A stretch of 64,000 nt of DNA, taken from the NCBI RefSeq assembly GCF_007115095.1, contig NZ_SULH01000006.1, positions 124,001 to 188,000 on the forward strand, read 5' to 3'. Under the pieces are notes generated by a model. That model was not told where the DNA came from. It saw only the letters and a program-made list of their open reading frames with translations, and did no database searches. This document shows, piece by piece, positions 8,839 to 57,510 of this stretch. The translations under genes and the position numbers were made by a program. Source of the stretch: Levilactobacillus enshiensis (GTDB lineage: Bacteria; Bacillota; Bacilli; Lactobacillales; Lactobacillaceae). The stretch's first letter is position 1, and each line of letters begins with the position of its first letter.

Positions 8839-8910
8839 GCGCCCGTAGTGTAATGGATCGCACGTAAGATTCCGGTTCTTGAAATGGGGGTTCGATTCCC
8901 TCCGGGCGCA
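8839..8910 (+). tRNA. tRNA-Arg (CCG)
   Basis: 72-nt cloverleaf: acceptor GCGCCCG/CGGGCGC, D stem GTGT/GCAC, anticodon stem TAAGA/TCTTG enclosing TTCCGGT with anticodon CCG after T33, T arm GGGGG-TTCGATT-CCCTC, discriminator A. It decodes CGG. CCA is not encoded. An identical copy lies at 9838-9909. Confidence 0.96.
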
Positions 8911-9837: not shown

Positions 9838-9909
9838 GCGCCCGTAGTGTAATGGATCGCACGTAAGATTCCGGTTCTTGAAATGGGGGTTCGATTCCCT
9901 CCGGGCGCA
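9838..9909 (+). tRNA. tRNA-Arg (CCG), second identical copy
   Basis: Same 72-nt sequence as 8839-8910, with about 10 nt of 5' flank also conserved (one mismatch). Same strand, 999 nt apart, each with its own promoter and terminator. Confidence 0.96.
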
Positions 9910-17327: not shown

Positions 17328-20183
17328 CTACTTCTTCTGGTCGGCTTCCGTGCGTGCGCGATCCCGTTCCAAGACCGGCTTGAGGTACTGCCCCGTGTAG
17401 CTCGCCTTTACTTCAGCCAATTCTTCCGGCGTTCCGGTCGCCACAACGTTGCCGCCGGCTTCGCCACCTTCAGGACCCAAGTCGATCAAATGATCCGCCG
17501 TCTTGATGACATCTAAGTTATGTTCGATAACCAAGACCGTATTCCCCTTGTCGACTAGGCGATGCAAGACGACCAACAAGCGCTTGATATCGTCCGCATG
17601 GAGCCCCGTGGTTGGTTCATCAAGGATATAAAAGTTCTTCCCGTTCTGTTGCTTGTGCAATTCAGAAGCCAACTTCATCCGTTGCGCTTCCCCACCAGAT
17701 AAGGTGGTCGCAGGTTGGCCTAACTTCACGTAGCCCAAACCGACATCTTGAATCGTTTGGAGCTTCCGCGTAATCTTCGGAATGGCCTCAAAGAACTTCA
17801 GCGCTTCGCTGACAGTCATATCCAGCACGTCAGCAATATTCTTTCCCTTGTATTCAACTTCCAACGTTTCTGAGTTGTAACGCGTCCCATGACAAACTTC
17901 ACAAGGCACGTAAACGTCGGGTAAAAAGTTCATTTCGATCTTTAAGATTCCATCCCCATGGCAAGCCTCACAACGACCACCCTTGGTGTTGAAACTAAAC
18001 CGGCCCTTTTGATAACCACGTAACTTGGCGTCGTTTGTCTGAGCAAATAAGGTCCGGACATCGTCAAAGACCCCCGTATACGTGGCTGGGTTACTCCGTG
18101 GCGTCCGCCCAATTGGACTTTGGTCAATATCAACCAAGCGCTCAATGTTCGTTACGCCGGCAATACTCTGATATTTCCCGGGTTTTTCCGAATTGTGATT
18201 CAGTTTCTGGGCCAACGCGCGTTTCAGAATCGTATTGACCAACGTCGACTTCCCAGAGCCTGAGACGCCGGTGACCACCACAAACTCGCCCAGCGGAAAA
18301 TCAACCGTAATATCCTTTAAGTTGTTTTCGGCTGCACCAGTCACTCGAATTTCTTTGCCATTTCCCTGACGCCGTTGCAGTGGGACTGGAATGTATTGTT
18401 TACCAGACAGGTACTGGCCAGTCAATGACTTTCGCGAGCGCATGACTTGCTTAGGTGTCCCCGCAGCCATCACGTGGCCACCGTTTTCACCCGCACCCGG
18501 ACCAATATCCACAATGTAATCAGCGGCCCGCATGGTGTCCTCATCGTGTTCCACAACGATCAGCGTGTTACCCAAATCACGCATCTGCTTCAAGGATGCA
18601 ATCAAGCGGTCATTATCCCGTTGATGCAGCCCGATTGAAGGTTCATCTAAAATGTAGAGCACCCCAGATAGATTGGACCCAATTTGCGTGGCCAACCGAA
18701 TCCGTTGGGCCTCCCCACCAGATAATGTCCGGGCCGAACGACTGAGCGTCAGGTAGTCCAAGCCCACGTTTCGTAAGAAGGTCAGTCGGTCACGAATTTC
18801 CTTCAAAATCGGTTGCGCGATGACTTGATCCTGTTCACCAAAATGCAAGTCATTAAAGAAGCTCAGCTCCTTGTCGACAGGCAAGTTGGAGACCTCACCG
18901 ATGTGTTGGTGATTGATCTTCACACTCAGCGCTTGCCGGTTCAACCGAAAACCATGACACGTCTGACAGGTCAATTCAGTCATGTACTTCCGCATCACAT
19001 CACGCGTAAAATCACTGTTCGTTTCATGGTAACGCCGATCAATGTTGGGAATAACCCCTTCAAAGGCCACGTCAACATCACGGACACCACCAAAATCATT
19101 TTCATAGTGGAAATGGAATTCCTTGCCCTGTGAGCCATACAATACGACGGCTTGGTCGTTCTTGGACAGGTCCTTAAAGGGCGTATCCATATCAATGTTA
19201 AAGGCCGCGCAAGCTTGTTCCAGCAACGCTGGATAGTACTGCGAGCTGATTGGATTCCAAGGCTCTAAAGCGCCTTCGCGCAACGTTTTCGTTGCATCTG
19301 GAACCACTAAATCTAGGTCAACTTCCAACTTGACCCCTAATCCATCACAATCGGGGCAAGCACCAAATGGCGCGTTAAAGGAGAAGAGCCGGGGTTCTAA
19401 TTCGCCCACGGTAAATCCACAGACAGGACAAGCATAATGCTCAGAGAAGATCATGGGATCACCGTCGATCAGGTCGGCGATTGCATAACCACCACTCAAA
19501 CGTAACGCCGCTTCAAAGGAATCGAATAGGCGGGACCGAATACCCTTTTTCACAACGACCCGATCGATAACGATGGCGATATCATGGCTCTGATTCTTAT
19601 TCAGTTCGGGCACGTTGTCGATGTCTAAGATCTCACCGTCGACCCGGACCCGCACAAAACCCTCACGCTGGATTTTTTCAAAGATTTTTTTGTGTTGACC
19701 CTTTTTCGCGCGAACGATGGGCGATAAAACCTGCAGTTTCGTCCGTTCCGGCAAAGCTAGCACCTGATCGACCATCTGCTCCACACTCTGGCTCGTGATC
19801 TTAGTACCATCGTTGGGACAGATCGGTGTTCCGACCCGCGCCCACAGCAGTCGCAGATAATCATTGATTTCCGTGACGGTTCCGACCGTGGACCGTGGGT
19901 TCTTCGAGGTCGTCTTTTGGTCGATTGAAATGGCTGGACTTAGGCCATCAATTGAATCAACATCTGGCTTATCCATTTGCCCTAAAAATTGTCGTGCATA
20001 GGACGACAAGCTCTCCACATAACGACGTTGGCCCTCTGCATACAGCGTATCAAAGGCCAAAGAACTCTTCCCAGAACCAGACAGGCCACTGATGACCACC
20101 AATTTGTTCTTGGGAATCGTTACGTCGATATCTTTCAAGTTGTGGGCCCGCGCCCCGTGAATCACGATTTTATCGTTTACCAA
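17328..20183 (-). CDS. uvrA: UvrABC excinuclease subunit A
   Basis: Damage-recognition ATPase of nucleotide excision repair. The 951-aa protein has two ABC ATPase modules: Walker [10 protein letters not shown] near residue 33 and GVSGSGKST near 640, and two LSGGEAQR signatures, plus the Cys pairs CPVC/CPDC (about 253-280) and [16 protein letters not shown] (about 738-765) of the zinc modules. The start is TTG at 20181-20183 with TAGGAG upstream; the nearby ATG is in another frame. It lies 20 nt after uvrB, forming a uvrB-uvrA operon under the LexA box at 22495-22508. Confidence 0.99.
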
Positions 20184-54986: not shown

Positions 54987-55022
54987 TTAGCACTGTTAGC
55001 ACTTGACTAACATAAGTGCTAA
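54987..55022. promoter_or_regulatory. CIRCE (HrcA operator) plus extra half site
   Basis: TTAGCACTT-N9-AAGTGCTAA (54996-55022) is a perfect CIRCE-type palindrome. A further TTAGCACT half site lies immediately next to it at 54987-54994. Confidence 0.93.
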
Positions 55023-55062: not shown

Positions 55063-55210
55063 GGAATTTGACAAACTATTTCGGCGACGATGCGCTTAGG
55101 GGTTGGGCGCCATAGGTTCGCACGTATTCAAGTTGATTGAACGGTGGTTTCCCCGACTCAAAATAAGGTCAAAGTGCGTGTGACATCAGGCGATTAGTTT
55201 GCGAGCATTT

Positions 55211-55256
55211 ACGTGAGAACAGGGGGATGGTCTTGGCATAATTTCTGTTCTCACGT
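55211..55256. repeat. perfect 12-bp inverted repeat
   Basis: ACGTGAGAACAG (55211-55222) and CTGTTCTCACGT (55245-55256) with a 22-nt loop. The loop plus flank TCTTGGCATAATTT (55231-55244) is complementary to AAATTATGCCCAGA at 55347-55360, so two foldings compete. Confidence 0.7.
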
Positions 55257-55305
55257 TAAGCGCAACTCCCCCGTGGCGCACATTTCGGCACGGTAATGGC
55301 CAAAA

Positions 55306-55346
55306 AAATCAGTTTTTTCAGAAGACTTCTGAAAAAGCTGATTTTT
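55306..55346. terminator. rsgA terminator
   Basis: Long stem (AAATCAG, TTTTTCAGAAG and complements, one G-T pair) with A/T runs on both sides; usable on either strand. Confidence 0.85.
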
Positions 55347-55365
55347 AAATTATGCCCAGACTCAT

Positions 55366-56439
55366 TTACCGGCGCCGAATCCTTTGCACGTGATCCATGG
55401 TCCGCTTCATTTCCTTCTTACTTCCAAAAAAACGTTGAATCTTGGCATTTTCCCGTTCACGAGCGCTCATATCACTGTAACTGAGTTCGAGTTGGAGCTT
55501 GTGGTAGCTTGCCAGCCGACTCGCGTCTAACTCCCCTGCCGCAATAGCCGCTTGGACTGCACACCCCGGTTCCGTTTGATGCGTACAGTTACGAAATTTA
55601 CACTGATCGGCCAGCGTCGTAATGTCGGTAAATGCCTTGGTCAAATCACCGCCCTGAACCTGAAGCTCACGCATGCCTGGGGTGTCGATGACCACTCCGC
55701 CAGTTGGCAGTCGCAGGAGTTCTCGCGACGTGGTCGTGTGTCGTCCTTTGTCATCATCAGTACGAATCGCTTGCGTGTCCAGCACATCATGCCCGAGTAG
55801 CCCATTGATCAACGTCGACTTGCCAACACCGGACGACCCAATAAAGGAAACGGTCTGATTTCCAGTCACGTAAGCTTTAAGCGCATCAATACCAGTACCG
55901 GTCTGTGCCGAACAGGTGACCACGTCCACGCCCAGCGTCACGGTGGCCAGCTCATCTAATTTTGTGGAGACATCGGCACACAGGTCGGCCTTGGTCAGCA
56001 CCACGACGGGCACGGCGCCACTGTCCCACGCCATGGTCAAGTAGCGTTCGATGCGATGCACGTTAAAGTTGGCATTAAGCGACATACAGATGAAGATCGT
56101 ATCCACGTTGGCCGCAATGATCTGACCAGCCCCCGTCTTACCAACCGCTGCTCTTTCCAACACACTTTGCCGGGGCAAAACGCGTTGAATCAAGGCGAGC
56201 TGGTGATCCGGGGAAATCGTGACCAACACCCAATCGCCAACGGCTGGAAAGTCAGTCGCCACGGTCAACTCATGGCGTAGCTTACCGACAACTTCTGCTG
56301 GCAACACCCCACTTGCACTGATGACTTGGTAAGCCTCACGATGCTGTTCGGTCACGCGAGCTAACGCCAACTGGGGTGTTGCCGCGGCAAGTTGTTCTAG
56401 GTGTTCGGTGAGACCATATTGCTTTAAATTGATTTTCAA
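55366..56439 (-). CDS. rsgA: ribosome small subunit-dependent GTPase RsgA
   Basis: 357-aa circularly permuted GTPase that helps mature the 30S subunit. An N-terminal OB-like region (about 30-95) is followed by G motifs in permuted order: TKADLC (G4, about 149-154), GSSGVGKST (G1, about 201-209), then DTPG (G3), and a C-terminal zinc motif (CKFRNCTHQTEPGC, about 285-298). The start is TTG at 56437-56439 with AAAGGA upstream; a TTG seven codons earlier has no ribosome site. That Shine-Dalgarno lies in a hairpin arm, and the upstream leader has overlapping antiterminator/terminator hairpins. The family often has a second copy elsewhere. Confidence 0.93.
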   Translation of the reverse strand: MKINLKQYGLTEHLEQLAAATPQLALARVTEQHREAYQVISASGVLPAEVVGKLRHELTVATDFPAVGDWVLVTISPDHQLALIQRVLPRQSVLERAAVGKTGAGQIIAANVDTIFICMSLNANFNVHRIERYLTMAWDSGAVPVVVLTKADLCADVSTKLDELATVTLGVDVVTCSAQTGTGIDALKAYVTGNQTVSFIGSSGVGKSTLINGLLGHDVLDTQAIRTDDDKGRHTTTSRELLRLPTGGVVIDTPGMRELQVQGGDLTKAFTDITTLADQCKFRNCTHQTEPGCAVQAAIAAGELDASRLASYHKLQLELSYSDMSARERENAKIQRFFGSKKEMKRTMDHVQRIRRR

Positions 56440-56450
56440 TCTCGATAATT

Positions 56451-56478
56451 CCTTTCGCAAACGGTGGTACCCGAAAGG
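56451..56478 (-). promoter_or_regulatory. hairpin sequestering the rsgA Shine-Dalgarno
   Basis: CCTTTCG (minus strand, 56472-56478) pairs perfectly with CGAAAGG (56451-56457); the latter contains the AAAGG of the rsgA ribosome site. Loop of 14 nt. Confidence 0.6.
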
Positions 56479-56571
56479 CTAACGACGACAGATGACTGGC
56501 GCTACACTTAAATCTGGTCACTAAATAATCCCAGTTCGGACTGTTCGGTGTGTGGTCCTGCCATTTGCACC

Positions 56572-56624
56572 AAAAAAGGATGCAGTTGAGACTGCACCCC
56601 TGAACCAAGTTTTTTGTGGGTGCA
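56572..56624 (-). terminator. overlapping antiterminator and terminator before rsgA
   Basis: Terminator: GGGTGCAGT-CTCA-ACTGCATCC (56578-56599) then TTTTTT (56572-56577). Antiterminator: TGCACCC (56618-56624) with GGGTGCA (56593-56599), loop 18 nt. They share GGGTGCA and exclude each other. Confidence 0.65.
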
Positions 56625-56748
56625 GATGTCATTTTCGTTCAAGTCGTTACGGGTACACTAAAACTAGCAGGCAAATTGCCCACTTTTCAGCTTCCTGCGT
56701 AACTCCTATTGAACGACCGACATCCGGCAACCCTCCGATAATTTAATT
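56572..56748 (-). ncRNA. candidate structured leader RNA or small RNA upstream of rsgA
   Basis: A transcript of about 177 nt is expected from the promoter at 56755-56784 to the T-run at 56572. It contains a rod: GATGTC and TCGTTCAA (56709-56724) pair with TTGAACGA and GACATC (56625-56642), further in GTTACG pairs with CGTAAC, and GGCAATTTGCC forms the tip. It has no good coding frame; only a 5-codon ATG frame (56721-56723 down) after GGAGGG. It could be an attenuator leader of rsgA or an independent RNA of 6S-like size. Confidence 0.5.
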
Positions 56749-56754
56749 GCTGAT

Positions 56755-56784
56755 AGCATAGCATTATGCTTGAATCAGTGTCAA
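56755..56784 (-). promoter_or_regulatory. promoter of the rsgA leader
   Basis: TTGACA (56779-56784), 18-bp spacer, TGC-TATGCT extended -10 (56755-56760). Confidence 0.75.
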
Positions 56785-56821
56785 TCGTTAAGCCATCCCG
56801 CGACTAAACTAATTTAGACGC

Positions 56822-56856
56822 AAAAAACACCCCTTGGACTGAACCAAGTGGGTGTT
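56822..56856 (-). terminator. terminator after rex
   Basis: AAACACCCACTTGG / CCAAGGGGTGTTT stem followed by TTTTG on the minus strand. Confidence 0.88.
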
Positions 56857-56874
56857 TCTCATTAAAAATGAGAC

Positions 56875-57510
56875 TTAATCTTTATTGTAGTGTTCCAAGA
56901 AGTAGATCAACGTCTGCAGTTCATTCGTTAAGTCCACGTTTTGAACCCGAACATCCTTGGGCACCGTAATCCGTAGTGGCGTGAAGTTCAGGATTCCCTT
57001 CACCCCACCGGCAACGACTTCTTCCGTAACGGACTGGGCAACGTCAGATGGGACCGTCAGAATGGCGATTTGAATCTGTTGTTCTTCCAGCTGTGTCCGC
57101 AAGTCGGTCATTGGGTAGATGGGAACACCACTCTGAATCGTGTTCGCCATATCCTTGCTAACATCAAAGGCCGCACTGATTCGGACGTTACCATCCTGGT
57201 GGAAATTAAAGTTCAGTAGCGCATGCCCCAAGTTTCCGACCCCAATCAAGGCCACGTTCGTTAACCGGTCCTGATTTAAGATCTTCTTGAAGAACTTGAT
57301 GAGACTTTCAACGTCGTACCCGTAGCCCCGTTTACCGAGGGCCCCAAAGTAAGAGAAATCTCGACGAATGGTTGCTGAATCAACCTTAACGGCTTCAGAA
57401 AGTTCCGTCGAGGACACACGAGTTTTGTCCGCGTCCAGCAAGATGTTTAAGTAACGGTAGTAGATGGGGAGCCGTTTAGCTGTCGCGCGGGGAATCTTTT
57501 GATCTGTCAA
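56875..57510 (-). CDS. rex: redox-sensing transcriptional repressor Rex
   Basis: 211-aa repressor that senses the NADH/NAD+ ratio and controls fermentation and respiration genes. The N-terminal winged helix (about 1-80; [30 protein letters not shown]) is followed by a Rossmann domain with [15 protein letters not shown] (about 90-104) and a C-terminal swapped helix. The start is TTG at 57508-57510 with AGGAGG upstream. It is divergent from the ABC-F gene, with Rex-type sites between them, so autoregulation is likely. Confidence 0.97.

Follow-up and report, generated by a model that had tools for sequence, protein, structure and literature searches.

In a 64,000-nt stretch of the Levilactobacillus enshiensis genome (the window, meaning the whole stretch analyzed), the interval separating rex from rsgA appears to encode a short rod-like RNA on the minus strand. 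The question raised by this locus is whether that RNA is a small RNA in its own right or a leader controlling the gene behind it, and in the latter case what it would sense. A first-pass annotation of the sequence had proposed the layout of a conditional attenuator, and comparison with related loci supports this layout, as the element lies directly before a second rsgA gene (rsgA2) in all 11 Levilactobacillus genomes that carry it. We consider it probable that the element acts in cis as a ribosome-monitoring attenuator for an accessory RsgA paralog, resembling the leader of vmlR. A ribosome on a tiny upstream open reading frame (uORF) most likely serves as the sensor. The first-pass annotation had overlooked this frame and its Shine-Dalgarno (SD) sequence, both in the rod, as well as the hairpin holding the SD of rsgA2, the TTG start of that gene, and its being a second copy.

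Leader architecture and distribution with rsgA2

The gene rsgA2 (55366–56439; all leader features described here are likewise on the minus strand) begins with TTG and encodes an N-extended RsgA GTPase of 357 amino acids, with matches to PF03193 (3e-55; 187.1 bits, cut-off 30) and TIGR00157 (166.3 bits, cut-off 100). The other RsgA of the genome (C12:139565) has the usual size, with a frame of 302 codons. A consensus scan located the promoter TTGACA-18-TATGCT where it had been described (10/12, with a TG before the -10 element); TTGACA starts at 56784 and TATGCT ends at 56755, and the -10 position suggests that transcription starts near 56748. The terminator (56572–56601) consists of a stem from 56601 to 56576 followed by six Ts, and the leader RNA between these signals is approximately 178 nt long. 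The previously noted rod-like shape is borne out by folding, as a 201-nt stretch of the minus strand reaches -75.5 kcal/mol compared to -51.7 ± 4.4 kcal/mol for shuffled sequences (z = -5.38), none of 200 of which was as stable.

The uORF (56706–56723; ATG TCG GTC GTT CAA TAG, MSVVQ*) was read from the sequence and by comparison, and is preceded by a GGAGG (56732–56736) located 8 nt before the ATG. This five-codon frame sits in the 5′ strand of the rod (56618–56733), the proposed anti-antiterminator. The 3′ side of the rod carries a motif conserved in alignments (GTGTACCCG, 56650–56658) and the antiterminator strand CTGCACCC (56618–56625), which can form 8 bp with the 5′ arm of the terminator. 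Beyond the terminator, the SD of rsgA2 is held in a hairpin, CCTTTCG..CGAAAGG (56451–56478), and GUGUACCC on the 3′ side of the rod is complementary to a segment of this hairpin: the CGGGTAC in its 5′ arm and loop (56473–56467) complements GTACCCG. The motif GTGTACCCG has two alternative partners, namely the interior of the rod or the segment before the rsgA2 SD (pre-SD).

The tiny frame recurs in related loci. Protein similarity, with an identity of at least 56%, was the only criterion for selecting 24 Lactobacillaceae loci (11 Levilactobacillus, L020–L024, and L117–L124, some from the same or sister species). An SD-like box and a uORF of 4 or 5 codons are present in 23 of them, and the remaining locus, L121, lies at a contig end that leaves 229 nt upstream. 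A larger set of 34 leaders was made up of these 24 loci, ten matches (L107–L116) to a covariance model built from 12 leaders (R1), a Megasphaera locus (L025), and L143 from the same phylum, minus L121 and L024, the upstream region of which is identical to that of L023. A 4–5 codon frame is present in all 34, compared to 0.32 of 34 in dinucleotide shuffles, although these leaders are related, some were chosen after the frame had been seen, and they do not count as independent. The uORF stop is TAA in 18 leaders and TAG in 16, codons 4 and 5 are variable, and the peptide starts with MSV in 22/34 and with MS in 30/34. The SD-like box begins 11–14 nt before the uORF start in 26/26 loci, and a terminator hairpin is present in 26/26 leaders (three located by hand). 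A promoter-like pair lies upstream of the uORF in 29/34 leaders (shuffles: mean 0.9, maximum 4), and the aligned rsgA2 start is TTG in 32/34 and ATG in the other two (eight read by eye). The locus contains the leader uORF with an SD that characterizes attenuators of the vmlR/hflXr type, and translation of this uORF is predicted.

A second RsgA is scattered within the genus. A search at E ≤ 1e-60 detected rsgA2 in 11 of the 35 Levilactobacillus genomes, and the remaining 24, one of which is 72% complete, have no match; rsgA2 is not present in every genome, as a housekeeping RsgA would be. Counting of RsgA domains in 26 genomes gave two in each of the 23 picked for rsgA2 and one in the other three. 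By blastn, the element occurs in 11 of the 35 genomes, which are exactly the rsgA2 carriers. Since rex adjoins the element in only 3 of the 11 loci (1.5 kb flanks, one shorter), the element travels with rsgA2 and not with rex. The model R1 matched 19 of 397 genomes of the family, belonging to Levilactobacillus and to Lactiplantibacillus, the genus of L022, and rsgA2 is directly downstream in 19/19. Among 43 rsgA-homolog loci, R1 matched four (L020, L022, L023, and L024; E ≤ 10) and missed L021 and the Megasphaera locus, both with a tiny uORF, and all Bacillus-like loci. Among plasmid records, 140 contain rsgA homologs, all below 60% identity, and therefore no close mobile copy.

Two repeats were also observed near the gene. 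Just downstream of rsgA2 lies a 161-bp element with inverted repeats (55205–55365), which has 55 full and partial matches in the same genome, some being the two arms of one copy, and is perhaps a MITE-like repeat family. An inverted repeat, TTAGCACT-N11-AGTGCTAA (54996–55022; none expected by chance), is located before groES/groEL, and we take it to resemble the CIRCE element.

Pairings conserved among the leaders

RNAalifold gave weak support on 12 close sequences (-14.7 kcal/mol; both partners changed in 3 of 32 pairs), probably due to misalignment of L022 in the inner rod. Because of this weakness, and to avoid alignment artefacts, an alignment-free species-swap test was used, in which the pairing energy of strands from the same leader is compared to that of strands swapped between species, with permutations that ignore relatedness. 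This test, as well as the ribosome-footprint tests of contact and SD accessibility below, used 28 leaders (the 34 minus the near-duplicates L007, L008, L012, L020, L113, and L114), and the within-genus and antiterminator swap tests used 21 (26 minus L007, L008, L012, L113, and L114).

The complementarity of the rod is kept among relatives despite sequence change, with -32.7 kcal/mol for native strands compared to -24.6 kcal/mol for swapped strands (0/50,000 permutations, kinship ignored); within single genera, swaps did as well in 0/20,000 permutations for Lactiplantibacillus and 225/20,000 for Levilactobacillus. By this test, the uORF strand is part of a potential anti-antiterminator stem. 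The uORFs of L021 and L123 have no 3′ pairing partner in one set of folds; in another set, L021 forms the rod. One pair of helix P3, just before the motif, occurs with all four Watson-Crick types (TA 10, GC 10, AT 4, CG 2; unpaired in 8/34). The SD hairpin also prefers its own strands (-9.6 compared to -8.1 kcal/mol swapped; 0/50,000 permutations).

Pairing of the motif with the pre-SD segment reaches -12.6 kcal/mol in native leaders and -10.7 kcal/mol in swapped ones (0/50,000 permutations; 0/500 segment shuffles). Within a single genus the difference is not significant (1,352 of 20,000 for Lactiplantibacillus and 15,084 of 20,000 for Levilactobacillus), because the motif hardly varies there. 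Between species, both partners are exchanged together, from GUACCCG/CGGGUAC in the window to GUACCCUAA/UUAGGGUAC in L109, GUACCCUU/AAGGGUAC in L111, ACCCAAAU/AUUUGGGU in L120, and UGUACCCAC/GUGGGUACA in L122. In 8 of the 28 leaders the pairing is no better than that of the median chimera, and L118, L025, and L143 pair weakly (-5.8 to -6.9 kcal/mol).

The mutually exclusive antiterminator and terminator that had been proposed from TGCACCC and GGGTGCA receive mixed support. The two segments are present and extend to CTGCACCC/GGGTGCAG with 8 bp, a length that shuffles of this single leader reach in 6/100 cases. Of the 11 Levilactobacillus leaders, 8 have an overlapping antiterminator of 8 bp or more (genus mean 8.0 bp, 0/100 shuffle sets), although it is not conserved in the L. 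brevis-like L010–L012. Among the 23 leaders from outside the genus, however, the mean is 5.9 bp and shuffles are equal in 97/100, and the swap test over 21 leaders fails (993/20,000); as a conserved core, the overlapping antiterminator was therefore rejected outside Levilactobacillus. Pairing of the motif with the 5′ arm of the terminator beats shuffles (0/300) and is only suggestive, because chimeras do equally well (11,351/20,000; 28 leaders).

The effect of a ribosome on the uORF was approximated in silico by equilibrium folding, which has little bearing on the race during transcription. Without a ribosome, the terminator probability, taken at the best base of the arm, is 1.00 in 26/26 leaders. 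Blocking the uORF footprint brings it under 0.5 in 12/26 for one of the two ribosome positions, whereas in the leader of the window it stays at 0.97–0.98 while single-base antiterminator pairing rises from 0.01 to 0.33 and 0.70. The contact between motif and pre-SD is 0.00 in 28/28 free leaders; when a ribosome occupies the stop codon, it is at least 0.8 in 19/28 and below this value in 9/28. Mean accessibility of the rsgA2 SD over the 28 leaders is 0.30 when free, 0.39 with a ribosome at the uORF start, and 0.50 with a ribosome at the stop. In the leader of the window, the values are 0.00, 0.00, and 0.55. Shifts greater than 0.1 are upward in 11 leaders and downward in 4 at the start position, and upward in 16 and downward in 5 at the stop. 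The proposed translational layer of control is better supported by comparison than the transcriptional layer, because the antiterminator fails against shuffles outside Levilactobacillus and in the swap test.

Proposed mechanism and competing readings

When ribosomes translate the uORF and depart promptly, the uORF strand would pair with its 3′ complement in the rod, which would occupy the antiterminator strand and the GUGUACCC motif and let the terminator form. In the few read-through mRNAs, the rsgA2 SD would be kept in its hairpin ahead of a weak UUG start. A ribosome held on the uORF, either at the start or on the last codon and stop, would block the rod. In Levilactobacillus, the terminator segment GGGUGCAG could then be engaged by CUGCACCC (and GUACCC), and the GUACCC motif, once released, could bind the 5′ arm and loop of the SD hairpin, so that the outcome would be more read-through and more RsgA2. 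By analogy to some antibiotic-resistance genes, a ribosome held on the tiny frame most likely switches rsgA2 on; the signal may be a ribosome-targeting antibiotic, as we suggest from the same analogy, and RsgA2 may help compromised ribosomes.

The closest known system is the vmlR leader of Bacillus subtilis, for which ribosome-mediated attenuation of both transcription and translation is described, with stalling and induction shown (PMC9226507). Common to both leaders are a tiny uORF in an anti-antiterminator stem, a terminator, and then an SD-sequestering hairpin, which in vmlR can be disrupted by base-pairing in the read-through RNA (PMC9226507), as proposed here. The vmlR uORF has three codons (MIN), and the rsgA2 uORFs, with 4–5 codons, are nearly as short; the vmlR leader controls an ABC-F resistance ATPase and the present one an RsgA GTPase (PMC9226507). 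A further difference is that the overlapping antiterminator of the rsgA2 leaders is clear in one genus only. The rli80-hflXr locus of Listeria similarly places a spare ribosome-associated GTPase behind a uORF leader and a conditional terminator (PMC6310831). As described there, HflX splits 70S ribosomes, and the hflXr uORF encodes 14 amino acids with an RLR motif that is absent in the rsgA2 uORF (PMC6310831). Antibiotic induction has been shown for rli80-hflXr in that source, whereas the rsgA2 leader is known here from sequence (PMC6310831).

The accessory ribosome factors HflXr and VmlR, which are under uORF attenuators, proved to be resistance or rescue factors, and a second RsgA under similar control predicts a role in translation stress for a GTPase of the 30S subunit. 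Harmless lactic acid bacteria offer a system in which the signal could be found, and Lactiplantibacillus plantarum WCFS1 is another strain with an rsgA2. Among the literature matches listed, none treats the rsgA2 leader. In one report, lp_1687, the rsgA2 of L. plantarum, is among the genes changed by hydroxytyrosol (PMC7278804). Induced RsgA2 could have another role, because E. coli RsgA is reported, per the title of the paper, to inhibit phage T4 by ribosome inactivation (PMC10475562).

An independent trans-acting RNA, 6S-like or otherwise, with its own terminator placed before rsgA2 by chance, would also account for the promoter, the terminator, and the rod-like transcript of about 178 nt, and 6S RNA (RF00013) is of similar length (about 180 nt) and is likewise rod-like with its own promoter. 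We regard this reading, raised in the first-pass annotation as the rival, as very unlikely. The Rfam covariance search yielded no match at gathering score at the locus, in line with the earlier remark that neither a T-box nor a known riboswitch could be recognized. The matches in the whole window are two tRNA genes elsewhere (8839–8910 and 9838–9909), which have equal Rfam scores and lie about 1 kb apart. At E ≤ 10, the region 56400–56900 gave only two weak matches, both over the rex terminator, and no 6S RNA, while contig C54 of the same genome has a 6S candidate (18282–18472; 42.4 bits, cut-off 46.4) that may be the true 6S gene. Identification of the leader as 6S RNA, a T-box, or another Rfam family was rejected on these results. 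Unlike 6S RNA, the leader contains a uORF and is tied to rsgA2, which it accompanies where rex is no neighbor, and a conserved uORF and pre-SD complementarity would not be expected for a separate RNA. The terminated leader could additionally act in trans.

A ligand riboswitch, with the apical part (P3, its hairpin, and GUGUACCC) as the aptamer and the uORF as incidental or secondary, would explain why a UUU-N-GUGUA(C/U)CC stretch is strongly conserved from Lactobacillaceae to Megasphaera, which exceeds the need of one helix. This appears unlikely in light of the absence of an Rfam match, the two alternative partners of the motif, the exchange between TAA and TAG by which the uORF stop is kept, and the tendency toward a leader frame even among rsgA paralogs whose leaders are built differently (17/30, below). 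RsgA binds the 30S subunit, and together with the strict cis link to rsgA2 this is consistent with autoregulation, in which RsgA2 would bind the rod in the way that ribosomal proteins recognize mimics of rRNA in their own leaders. We find autoregulation quite improbable, and mimicry at the level of 16S rRNA sequence was rejected, as comparison of 10 of the 34 leaders to E. coli 16S rRNA gave scores at the level of shuffles (the best score was reached by 14/200); a 16S search of the assembly of the window gave no match.

Leaders of more distant rsgA homologs

Ribosome monitoring by a leader frame, as proposed for rsgA2, may extend to other rsgA paralogs. A scan covered 30 upstream regions from eight other Lactobacillaceae, other Lactobacillales, and other Bacillota (40 regions minus L121 and L138, which are short contig ends, and eight loci with the tiny uORF). 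An SD-led frame of 12–25 codons lies 75–235 nt before the gene in 17/30 (shuffles 1.6, maximum 6), and the order of a GGGAG-like box, a CCUCC-like box, and the gene SD occurs in 15/30 (shuffles 0.0, maximum 1), both patterns having been picked post hoc. Leader frames of 13–21 codons occur upstream of the more distant homologs (L125–L156), and in 15 of 30 an SD mimic is followed by an anti-SD box, which would be a second design of the same control. These patterns point to leader frames as a general means of controlling rsgA paralogs, by two or more RNA designs, and these paralogs seem to be wired to differing leader frames across Bacillota.

As a tentative joint reading, which we put forward as possible while holding it to be less than an even prospect, the second RsgA scattered across Bacillota would be an inducible ribosome-rescue or protection GTPase, a counterpart of HflXr, with leader peptides that report the state of the ribosome. 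One design within this reading would have 4–5 codons, mostly M-S-V-x-x-stop, with a rod and a kissing SD hairpin (Lactobacillaceae, Megasphaera, and L143). The other, in other Bacillota, would have a frame of 13–21 codons and an SD mimic, GGGAGG, competing for the anti-SD CCUCC. Recurring leader peptides include MSKNSTLEIVANREVDTK, MFKYRMAEIVVNWEVDNK, and MMQIVIFREEYSN, in which the GGGAGG box encodes RE or WE together with the V, E, or G that comes next.
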